Assembly (NCBI RefSeq): GCF_000746025.2
Contig: NZ_CP045798.1
Coordinates: 3,579,501 to 3,643,500 of the forward strand
DNA from: Thermanaerosceptrum fracticalcis
GTDB lineage: Bacteria; Bacillota; Peptococcia; DRI-13
Direction: 5' to 3'
Length of the DNA stretch: 64,000 nucleotides
Position 1 is the stretch's first letter; every line of letters starts with the position of its first letter. A program made the translations under genes and the position numbers. Positions 31,970 to 45,862 of the stretch are shown piece by piece. Below the pieces are notes generated by a model. That model was not told the DNA's origin and did no database searches. It saw only the letters and a list, made by a program, of their open reading frames with translations.

Positions 31970-32017
31970 TTAGTTTAATAGGAATTGTTTCATACAAGTA
32001 TGATTGGAGGGAAATTC

Positions 32018-32698
32018 ATGGCGGAACGTACTCTCTTGCGTATCAGACTGGACAATTTCCGGCCCCTGGGGGAAATGGTATATGAATCTTTAAGGGATGC
32101 TATTATAAACCAGGTTTTAAAGCCTGGCGAAAGATTGATGGAAACTGAACTGGCGGAAGAAATGGGGGTCAGCAGAACACCTGTAAGAGAAGCCATCAGA
32201 AAATTAGAACAGGAAGGTTATGTCGTAATGATCCCCCGTAAGGGAGCTTACGTGGCAGGACTCTCCATTAAAGATATTCATGAAGTCTTTGAGATAAGAG
32301 GAGCCTTGGAATCATTGGCTGCCGGGCTTGCGGCCGAAAGAGCCACACAGGAAGAAATTGAAGAGATGGAACGCAATATTGTTTTGGAAGCCAGTCACTT
32401 CGAAAGCAATGATCTGATTAAAACCATCGAAGTCGATACTAAATTTCACGAGCTTATTTTTAAAGCGTCCAAAAACGACCGTTTATTAGGGATGATCAGC
32501 AATTTGCGGGAACAGGTCCAAAGATTCCGGACTACTACCCTGGCTGTGTCCGGAAGACTAAAATTCGCTTTGGAAGAGCATAGAAGGATTGTGGAAGCAA
32601 TAGCCGCCAGGGATGTGCAGTTAGCCCAGCAGATGGCCAAAGATCACATTGAGAGTGCGGAAAATGCTTTGTTGGAAGTGATTAGCTACCAGAAGTAG
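32018..32698 (+). CDS. GntR-family regulator, FadR/FCD subfamily
   Basis: Transcription factor of 226 aa. N-terminal winged helix (YESLRDAIINQVLKPGERL, ELAEEMGVSRTPVREAIRKLEQEG at about residues 20-68) and all-helical C-terminal FCD ligand domain (DIHEVFEIRGALESLAAGLAAERA, then DTKFHELIFKASKN with metal-ligand Asp/His, and EHRRIVEAIAARD). FCD regulators sense organic acids or other metabolites. ATG at 32018 follows GGAGGG. No co-transcribed target is seen; repeats follow directly. Confidence 0.88.
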   Translation: MAERTLLRIRLDNFRPLGEMVYESLRDAIINQVLKPGERLMETELAEEMGVSRTPVREAIRKLEQEGYVVMIPRKGAYVAGLSIKDIHEVFEIRGALESLAAGLAAERATQEEIEEMERNIVLEASHFESNDLIKTIEVDTKFHELIFKASKNDRLLGMISNLREQVQRFRTTTLAVSGRLKFALEEHRRIVEAIAARDVQLAQQMAKDHIESAENALLEVISYQK

Positions 32699-34194: not shown

Positions 34195-34866
34195 TTATTT
34201 TTTAGCTCGATGACTCATGATATTTAAATAGGCCTGTTTCACGTGTTCAGTTAAAGCCTTTTCCGCTTTATCAGGATTTTTTTCCAGAAAAGCATTTAAT
34301 ACTGCCCTGTGTTCTGCCAGGGTATTTTCGATACGGTGGGGAACTTTCAGTGATTCTACCCGGGATAATTGTACGAACTGGTGGAGGTTACTTAAGGTCA
34401 GGTTTAATATTTTACTGCCGGAGGCTTCGTAGATGATTTCATGAAACTTTGTATCAAGACTGGCTACCTCTTCCTGATCCCCTTTTTGGGAATAAAACTC
34501 CATAAGGTCAGTCAGTTTTTGCAGTTCTTTGATTTCGGCCGGGCTAATTTTTTCTGCGGCCCAGCGTGCGGCCAGCCCTTCCACGAGTTGACGGATAGCG
34601 TAGATATCTTCAACGTCTTTAGAGGAGATCCCCAAAACGATGGCACCTTTATTAGGGGTAGTCTCCACCAGTCCTTCTACCTCTAAAAGCCGGATGGCTT
34701 CACGAATAGGGGTACGGCTTACCTTTAATTCTTCCGCTAGTTTTGACTCCACCAAGTTTTCCCCCGGGCTGTAAACACCGTTGATGATTTGTGATTTTAC
34801 ATATTTGAAAACTTTAGTGCGCAGTGATGCATCGTTGGTGGAAGAAAGTTCGAAGTCTTTGGCCAT
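34195..34866 (-). CDS. GntR-family regulator (FCD) of the citrate/homocitrate cluster
   Basis: FadR-type regulator of 223 aa: winged helix (SQIINGVYSPGENLVESKL, ELKVSRTPIREAIRLLEVEG about residues 26-66) and FCD domain (DVEDIYAIRQLVEGLAARWAAE; DTKFHEIIYEASG; EHRAVLNAFLE). It lies 80 bases after the isocitrate dehydrogenase gene on the same strand and has its own promoter, whose -10 box carries the palindrome TTGTATTACAA. A matching palindrome covers the -10 box of the first gene of the cluster, so it probably represses both. The ligand is perhaps a tricarboxylate. Confidence 0.87.
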   Translation of the reverse strand: MAKDFELSSTNDASLRTKVFKYVKSQIINGVYSPGENLVESKLAEELKVSRTPIREAIRLLEVEGLVETTPNKGAIVLGISSKDVEDIYAIRQLVEGLAARWAAEKISPAEIKELQKLTDLMEFYSQKGDQEEVASLDTKFHEIIYEASGSKILNLTLSNLHQFVQLSRVESLKVPHRIENTLAEHRAVLNAFLEKNPDKAEKALTEHVKQAYLNIMSHRAKK

Positions 34867-39267: not shown

Positions 39268-39295
39268 ATTGTATACAATAATACGTTTCATGCAA
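39268..39295 (-). promoter_or_regulatory. Promoter of the synthase-aconitase operon with ATTGTATACAAT operator
   Basis: Minus strand: TTGCAT, 16-base spacer, TACAAT. The perfect 12-base palindrome ATTGTATACAAT (39268-39279) overlaps the -10 box and resembles the palindrome at the gntR promoter. Confidence 0.62.
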
Positions 39296-39328
39296 CAGGT
39301 TTTATGAAAATATTATGTATACTTGGTG

Positions 39329-39534: not shown

Positions 39535-39860
39535 AGTTGGTAGTTGGTAGTTGTTAGTTGTTAGTTGTTAGTAACCGGCGCTTCCCGCTTACCGAAACCC
39601 GACATCCGATATCCGTTTTTCGATATCCCACGTCTTTTTTGGCGAATACAGCTTCGCCTCCCGATATCCGATATCACTTTTATACGACTTCCGATATCCG
39701 CTTTCCGATTTCCGAATTAATGTGTATTATCTTTGCAGCATTTGTTATTACTCTCGGAGTCGGTGTCGGATGTCGGTAGTCGGAAATCGAAAAGCGGAAT
39801 TCGGTTCACGGTTAACGGTTTCCGGACACCGGACACTGGTCACTGGTCACCAAAAAAGGG
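39535..39860. repeat. Longest degenerate word-repeat block
   Basis: TTGGTAGTTGGTAGTTGTTAG words, then CCGACATCCGATATCCG, TCGATATCCC, CCGATATCCGATATC and CGACTTCCGATATCCGC words on one strand, and GTCGGATGTCGGTAGTCGG, GGAAATCGAAAAGCGG on the other, so the two halves can pair. It closes with GGTTCACGGTTAACGG and CCGGACACTGGTCACTGGTCACC-type words (given in part). No gene. Confidence 0.75.
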
Positions 39861-45242: not shown

Positions 45243-45243
45243 T

Positions 45244-45299
45244 GTATACAATATTTTTTGCCCAAAACAGTAGCAAAACACTAACCCCGGTGCTATACT
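45244..45299 (+). promoter_or_regulatory. Promoter/operator region of micro-gene 1
   Basis: GTATACAAT at 45244 and an extended -10 box TGCTATACT (45291-45299), exactly 37 bases before the ATG. The layout is duplicated for micro-gene 2. Confidence 0.55.
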
Positions 45300-45335
45300 A
45301 TACACAAATAACAGTATGACTGGGGGCAGGAAAAC

Positions 45336-45443
45336 ATGTATACAATTACACATAAAGATGTAATTGCTGCTGATAGAGAGCATGAGCTGATGTGGGAACT
45401 AATGCTGGCAGAAATGGAACGCTGCCTGGGAGCAGAGCACTAA
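45336..45443 (+). CDS. Micro-protein 1 (35 aa), tandem paralogue
   Basis: Short gene preceded by GGGGGCAGG and an extended -10 promoter, followed by its own terminator. The peptide starts MYTITHKDVI and ends LMLAEMERCLGAEH; it shares MYTI at the start and LAEMER-x-L-x-AEH at the end with the next micro-gene. The second half should form an acidic amphipathic helix. No signal peptide or membrane segment. I do not recognise the family. The duplicated gene structure, not the length, argues that it is real. Confidence 0.62.
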   Translation: MYTITHKDVIAADREHELMWELMLAEMERCLGAEH

Positions 45444-45467
45444 AACTAAATGGTTAATTGAGGAGTT

Positions 45468-45497
45468 AGTCCGGTCACTGCCGGACTTTAATTTTTG
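45468..45497 (+). terminator. Terminator of micro-gene 1
   Basis: AGTCCGG / CCGGACT stem, 6-base loop, followed by TTAATTTTT. Confidence 0.75.
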
Positions 45498-45515
45498 AAA
45501 AGTTATTGTAAACAC

Positions 45516-45570
45516 GTATACAATATTTTTGCGAAAGAACCTGGTAAAAATGAAATTATGGTGTTATACT
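45516..45570 (+). promoter_or_regulatory. Promoter/operator region of micro-gene 2
   Basis: GTATACAAT at 45516 and extended -10 box TGTTATACT (45562-45570), again exactly 37 bases before the ATG. Confidence 0.55.
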
Positions 45571-45606
45571 ATACATAAATCACTGTATGACGGGAGGCAA
45601 TAAAAC

Positions 45607-45708
45607 ATGTATACAATTATGCAAAACGCCGATGAACACAGTTTCAATGAAGTGATGGAAGAAATTTACCTGGCGGAAATGGAGCGGAATCTTGTTGCCG
45701 AACATTAA
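45607..45708 (+). CDS. Micro-protein 2 (33 aa), tandem paralogue
   Basis: Second copy of the micro-gene: ribosome site CGGGAGG, ATG within TGTATACA, peptide MYTIMQNADEHSF at the start and YLAEMERNLVAEH at the end. Middle parts of the two peptides have diverged while both ends and all upstream spacing are kept. Its own terminator follows. Function unknown; monocistronic, acidic, cytoplasmic. Confidence 0.62.
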   Translation: MYTIMQNADEHSFNEVMEEIYLAEMERNLVAEH

Positions 45709-45732
45709 ACTGAATAGGGTACCTTGCGCATA

Positions 45733-45766
45733 AAAAGACTCCGGCTTAGAGGCACGGAGTCTTTTG
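45733..45766 (+). terminator. Terminator of micro-gene 2
   Basis: AAAAGACTCCG / CGGAGTCTTTT stem with an 11-base loop and a T-run. Confidence 0.85.
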
Positions 45767-45771
45767 CATTT

Positions 45772-45862
45772 GCGACAATGGGGACGGTTCTATTTTGTCG
45801 CAGTGAACATTTTTGCGACAATGGGGACGGTTCTATTTTGTCGCAGTGAACATTTGCGATAA
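45772..45862. repeat. Two tandem REP-like palindromes (GCGACAA...TTGTCGC)
   Basis: Two identical 30-base units at 45772-45801 and 45815-45844, each starting GCGACAATGGGGACGG and ending TATTTTGTCGC, separated by AGTGAACATTTTT, with a partial third (AGTGAACATTTGCGA). Related elements lie at 53.8, 54.07 and 61.9-62.06 kb. They resemble repeats mobilised by REP-associated Y1 transposases, but no transposase is in the window. Confidence 0.8.

Follow-up and report, generated by a model that had tools for sequence, protein, structure and literature searches.

Background

Regulators of the FCD subfamily of GntR proteins have short palindromic operators, an example being the B. subtilis GntR site with TTGTATACAA. 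Very small proteins that modulate nitrogen enzymes form a second described group, in which the cyanobacterial factors IF7 and IF17 inactivate glutamine synthetase and archaeal small proteins bind glutamine synthetase or GlnK. A locus of Thermanaerosceptrum fracticalcis DRI-13 has features of both. Like the FCD-GntR systems it has a palindrome (TGTATACA), GntR genes with the palindrome in their own promoters and targets in central metabolism, but here the putative operator also covers the start codon in microprotein genes. The microproteins are very small and charged like the IF7/IF17-type modulators, and apparently co-controlled with the 2-oxoglutarate/glutamate node, but they are about half the length of IF7, and the likeness is one of functional analogy. 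Dual-function small RNAs and leader peptides also share the short monocistronic transcript, the small open reading frame (ORF) and the terminator, whereas in this locus no gene follows and it is the C-terminus of the peptide that is conserved. No account of such a regulon turned up in the literature searched. The family is new but of a known general type, that of microproteins encoded within a regulon, and its arrangement, with the start codon inside the putative operator, is unusual.

Sequence and search scope

The window, meaning the whole stretch of 64,000 nucleotides that was analysed, corresponds to positions 3,579,501-3,643,500 of the T. fracticalcis DRI-13 genome. Homologues were located by fetching and reading the DNA around TGTATACAAT sites in genomes of the same order. 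Members were thus first chosen by the box, so that its conservation within the family partly reflects this choice. The spread recorded for the other families is to be read as a minimum. Leave-out profiles were searched over about 910,000 six-frame residues.

Architecture of the tandem units

Two tandem monocistronic units are located with hydE-hydG-aspA-hydF as 5' neighbours and an aminotransferase gene on the opposite strand as 3' neighbour. Each unit consists of a GTATACAATATTTTT box (at 45244 in unit 1 and 45516 in unit 2), an extended -10 element, a ribosome site, an ORF of 35 or 33 codons and a terminator (Table 1), and all of the parts listed in a preliminary description of the locus are present in the sequence. 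The extended -10 element is TGCTATACT in unit 1 and TGTTATACT in unit 2, with the hexamers at 45294-45299 and 45565-45570, a gap of 36 bases between hexamer and ATG in both units, and 49-50 bases between the box and the extended -10. The start codon of each unit lies inside TGTATACA, as had been described, with TGTATACAAT at 45337 and 45608. The units are identical at 39 of the 48 bases before the ATG. The expected transcripts are short, about 150-180 nt, and each has its own terminator. Beyond the units, at 45780-45860, the window contains two direct copies of GCGACAATGGGGACGGTTCTATTTTGTCGCAGTGAACATTT; one is present in the nearest relative (genome G001), so the copy number differs between these species.

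Table 1 Coordinates of features within the window
Feature	Position	Strand	Support
Second FCD-type GntR regulator, candidate box reader	31985..32698	+	Closer than the other candidate to the box-flanked GntRs in G010-G012
FCD-type GntR regulator, candidate box reader	34195..34866	-	GntR 6e-18, FCD 2e-30
Perfect palindrome ATTGTATACAAT, box in likely operator form	39268..39279	.	5' of homocitrate/Re-citrate-type synthase, aconitase, IDH, GntR series
Unit 1 upstream box, TGTATACAATATTTTT	45243..45258	+	Sequence; genome-wide motif TGTATACAAT, 14 vs 1 control
Unit 1 extended -10, TGC-TATACT	45291..45299	+	Sequence, promoter comparison
Unit 1 ribosome site, GGGGG	45322..45326	+	Sequence
Microprotein gene 1, MYTITHKDVIAADREHELMWELMLAEMERCLGAEH, 35 aa	45336..45443	+	Homologues, third-position bias
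Unit 1 start-codon box TGTATACAAT, 94 bp from upstream box	45337..45346	+	Sequence, genome-wide motif
Unit 1 intrinsic terminator	about 45468..45497	+	
Unit 2 upstream box, CGTATACAATATTTT	45515..45529	+	Sequence
Unit 2 extended -10, TGT-TATACT	45562..45570	+	Sequence, promoter comparison
Unit 2 ribosome site, GGGAGG	45592..45597	+	Sequence
Microprotein gene 2, MYTIMQNADEHSFNEVMEEIYLAEMERNLVAEH, 33 aa	45607..45708	+	Homologues, third-position bias, AlphaFold helix
Unit 2 start-codon box TGTATACAAT, 93 bp from upstream box	45608..45617	+	Sequence, genome-wide motif
Unit 2 intrinsic terminator, AAAAGACTCCG...CGGAGTCTTTT	about 45732..45766	+	Sequence, folding

Homologues and their distribution

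Homologues of 31-37 aa occur in four further families of the order, giving five with that of the window. The homologue of G009 is MYTIIQQDKKPDYEIMEEIISDTERALTSEY, those of G011 and G012 are MSKSTH[H/L]EAPMDNMELMQELIDEIERSLISEH, G013 has two copies 4 kb apart (MDALLTYNTLADQDDLAEILSEFEGCLMAEH and MDTLLSYIASTDQDDLAEILLCEFEGCLMAEH), and that of G014, with a TTG start, is MYTSLRKDNVSLTNVIEREIMEDLLALETEKSLIAEH. The signature E/D-hydrophobic-M-x-E ... E-x-x-L-x-x-E-H/Y is found at the stop codon, with the M replaced in both G013 copies, and in all members it ends E-x-E-x-x-L-x-x-E-H/Y. The promoter box lies 45-50 bp before the -10 element, and all units except the G011/G012 pair have a second box at the start site, 90-95 bp further downstream; this regularity bears out the earlier proposal of selection on regulation, and the absence from the G011/G012 units means that the second site is not universal. 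The arrangement exceeds chance, since it is kept in the near-identical species G001 and homologues of the four other families match it in box, -10 and start spacing.

In G009, G011, G012 and G014, which belong to three families, the gene follows tyrS (in G011 with a transposon-type ORF between), and this looks like the ancestral place of the microprotein gene. No small ORFs of this type were found after hydF in the other genomes examined, so that this location is peculiar to this genus. The nearest relative, the metagenome-assembled genome (MAG) Peptococcaceae bacterium M1_7_4_bin.22 (G001), contains both units, and in its unit 2 a 26-bp deletion takes out most of the conserved C-terminus, implying either that one copy is dispensable or an error in the MAG. 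The deleted unit is also the most divergent stretch of a contig that is otherwise about 98-99 % identical, as it might be if the units were recent, decaying duplicates without function and their ORFs due to chance, but the frames are intact across five taxonomic families and the position after tyrS is kept in three, which makes such decay highly improbable.

A profile made from the two window peptides only recovered the homologues of G009 (5e-4), G014 (0.004), the second G013 copy (G013b, 0.006) and G011 (0.09), and one made from G009 and G014 only recovered the window peptides (4e-6 and 1e-4) and G011/G012 (3e-4), these E-values being modest because the peptides are short. For the same reason ordinary peptide searches do not reveal the family: in 46 genomes of the class the 33-aa peptide, and in 398 genomes of the phylum a profile built from the peptides of the window and of G001, gave only matches in the own genus and chance matches inside longer ORFs. 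Nothing was obtained by tblastn against phages and plasmids. A viral contig matched the two-box pattern inside a coding-looking stretch that encodes no family member, and was set aside as a chance match. Searches of the window peptides and the family against Pfam, NCBIfam, PHROG and PDB profiles gave isolated weak matches of single members (best E 0.0096, RTP1_C2), none of them convincing, in agreement with the initial view that no such family had been described.

Protein-level selection and the N-terminus

Over the last 13 codons, genes 1 and 2 differ at one first, two second and nine third codon positions (P about 0.004 for position 3), and seven of the nine changed codons are synonymous. 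Together with the same C-terminus in other families, this substantiates the selection on the peptide that had been suggested. Absence of in-frame homologues and an even spread of substitutions over codon positions had been named beforehand as outcomes that would count against the preliminary description; both were looked for, and neither was found. The two peptides do share the MYTI start and the LAEMER-x-L-x-AEH end that it gave as their only common parts, but E-[L/V]-M-x-E preceding LAEMER is also common to both. AlphaFold models the product of gene 2 as one helix spanning residues 2-32 (mean pLDDT 83.8).

The first 13 nucleotides of both ORFs are identical, though third positions elsewhere have diverged. 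In G013 the start-site box is still 93 bp from the upstream box, yet TGTATACA lies just before the ATG and the proteins start MDA or MDT; in G014 the start-site box is over the TTG start, and the upstream box 90 bp away, GTATATTTTTT, is degenerate. Because the box keeps its spacing of about 93 bp even where the reading frame starts elsewhere, MYTI can be regarded as a consequence of the DNA element. As judged from these comparisons, the C-terminus is under protein-level selection and the MYTI start reflects the DNA box, so that of the two peptide ends first thought to be conserved the C-terminal one stands as peptide and MYTI is kept as DNA.

If the transcript itself acted, as a regulatory leader or small RNA, the ORF would be a by-product or a leader peptide. 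The short, separately terminated transcripts would suit this, as would a stretch resembling TGTATgATTGGaGG located 5' of the start in several members and a box-promoter at locus L119 that drives a terminator-ended transcript without an evident ORF. The third-position bias and synonymous changes of the C-terminal block argue against it, as does a C-terminal peptide that is the same in five families despite nucleotide divergence; moreover, there is no gene 3' of the ORF in the same transcript to attenuate, and an Rfam search gave nothing above gathering scores. Folding of the leader was weak and AT-rich, without a shared stable hairpin. A leader or small RNA is accordingly considered quite improbable, and the microprotein genes are very probably real.

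The box as a genome-wide motif

The box-to--10 offset is 45-50 in all six promoters measured, the -10-to-start distance is 36-38 in five and 44 in the remaining one, and five have the TGn extended -10. Genome-wide there are 14 TGTATACAAT sites against one for the reversed-word control, two perfect palindromes being counted twice so that the sites represent 12 places, and some lie inside genes; in G001 the numbers are 18 and 2. GTATACA followed by TATAAT or TATACT after 32-58 bases was found 21 times against 5 in the control, with a cluster at the micro-gene spacing. Genes 3' of the box include the amino-acid carrier gene agcS, pyruvate carboxylase A and B, 2-oxoacid oxidoreductase alpha, a branched-chain amino-acid binding protein, a glutamate synthase-like amidotransferase of class II, and a NifV-type synthase-aconitase-isocitrate dehydrogenase-GntR series, which is likely the core operon of the regulon. 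In relatives the box lies 5' of glutamate dehydrogenase, citrate synthase, hisS and FCD-GntR genes, 5' of aconitase in G011/G012 and 5' of the synthase in G013; in G010-G012 the promoters of the GntR/FCD genes themselves contain several ATTGTATACAAT palindromes. The literature search brought up no paper that connects the box with GntR, and GTATAC methylation is not mentioned in the methylome paper.

Several further stretches were recorded. At 39268-39323 of the window, ATTGTATACAAT and ATGTATACTT lie 5' of the NifV-type synthase, aconitase, isocitrate dehydrogenase and GntR genes, and at 39540-39860 dense short-word repeats (CCGATATCCG, GTTAGTTGTTAGT, CACTGGTCACTGGTCACC) precede a hydrogenase-regulator gene. 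A box-driven micro-ORF, MNAPILANIEEALEKLAALEEKREELKKTPCSPWGE, with the same box-to--10 spacing of 50, is located at L118:1643-1753 (G000:C1 about 2987322) and at L156 in G001, where its peptide, which is unrelated to the microproteins, has three amino-acid substitutions. On the minus strand at L113:1322-1465 (G000:C1 about 1483300) a box-driven 48-aa ORF, MLNYLTGDKFVQNRVKKEMDRYKKELGKKMGQYKLWKAELIENLYTRR, encodes another unrelated peptide; its box-to-start distance of 91 and box-to--10 distance of 50 are like those of the micro-gene family, and behind it lie a terminator-like hairpin and a transposase-like ORF. The same promoter type (GTATACATTATTTT, TGCTATACT) at L119:1500-1700 (G000:C1 about 2998840) precedes the short terminator-ended transcript noted above, possibly a small RNA of the same regulon.

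Candidate regulators

FCD-GntR is the leading candidate for the binder because the box precedes GntR/FCD genes, with several palindromes, and related metabolic genes; the box is common to GntR/FCD genes or operons and functionally related genes, as would be expected of an FCD-GntR regulon. Identity between the two GntRs of the window and the box-flanked ones of G010-G012 is only 29-34 %, and so the comparison does not pin down the binder. On these sequence associations, binding of the box by an FCD-GntR protein is judged slightly more probable than its contrary. The boxes might instead be operators of another regulator or mainly UP-like AT-rich elements, and the start-codon palindrome a signal for translation or RNA structure: an A/T tract adjoins the upstream box at the distance of an UP element, the upstream box of G014 is degenerate, and the regulator is still a candidate only. 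Such an explanation is rather unlikely given the full ATTGTATACAAT palindromes before GntR/FCD genes and a GntR-containing operon, the motif enrichment over the control, and the G013 start box, which persists upstream of the ATG at an unchanged distance. That the box is a regulatory site common to this metabolic group is considered likely.

Proposed mechanism and significance

The preferred reading, held to be fairly probable as a whole, is that of translated helical microproteins in an FCD-GntR regulon with upstream and start-codon operators. Each unit would be a short monocistronic gene with a translated, acidic, all-helical product of 31-37 aa, the conserved C-terminal half of which would be functional. 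A regulator recognising TGTATACA(AT), most likely an FCD-family GntR, may act at two putative sites, the first with its centre about 59 bp 5' of the expected transcription start, in an activator-like position adjoining the A/T tract, and the second about 93 bp beyond it and overlapping the start codon; with both occupied, the gene would be switched or loop-repressed. The same box marks genes feeding and draining the oxaloacetate/citrate/2-oxoglutarate/glutamate node, so that the microprotein is likely to be produced along with this regulon. It may bind, as a helix, a pathway protein or its regulator, and an enzyme or regulator of the citrate/2-oxoglutarate/glutamate node as its target is speculative. 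More broadly, and only tentatively, this order-wide family of helical microproteins of about 33 aa could be the protein output of an FCD-GntR citrate/2-oxoglutarate/glutamate regulon in anaerobic Clostridia, with a start codon that is part of the operator, one DNA word then serving both to bind the regulator and to encode the N-terminus, and with the microprotein tuning an enzyme or that regulator itself post-translationally.

The microprotein family was previously unnamed, being too small and divergent for ordinary protein searches, and was revealed only through conserved regulatory DNA. It is linked with a candidate regulon for the route from citrate to glutamate in anaerobic Clostridia, and provides a clear case of a gene whose first codons are conserved for DNA reasons and whose end is conserved for protein reasons.
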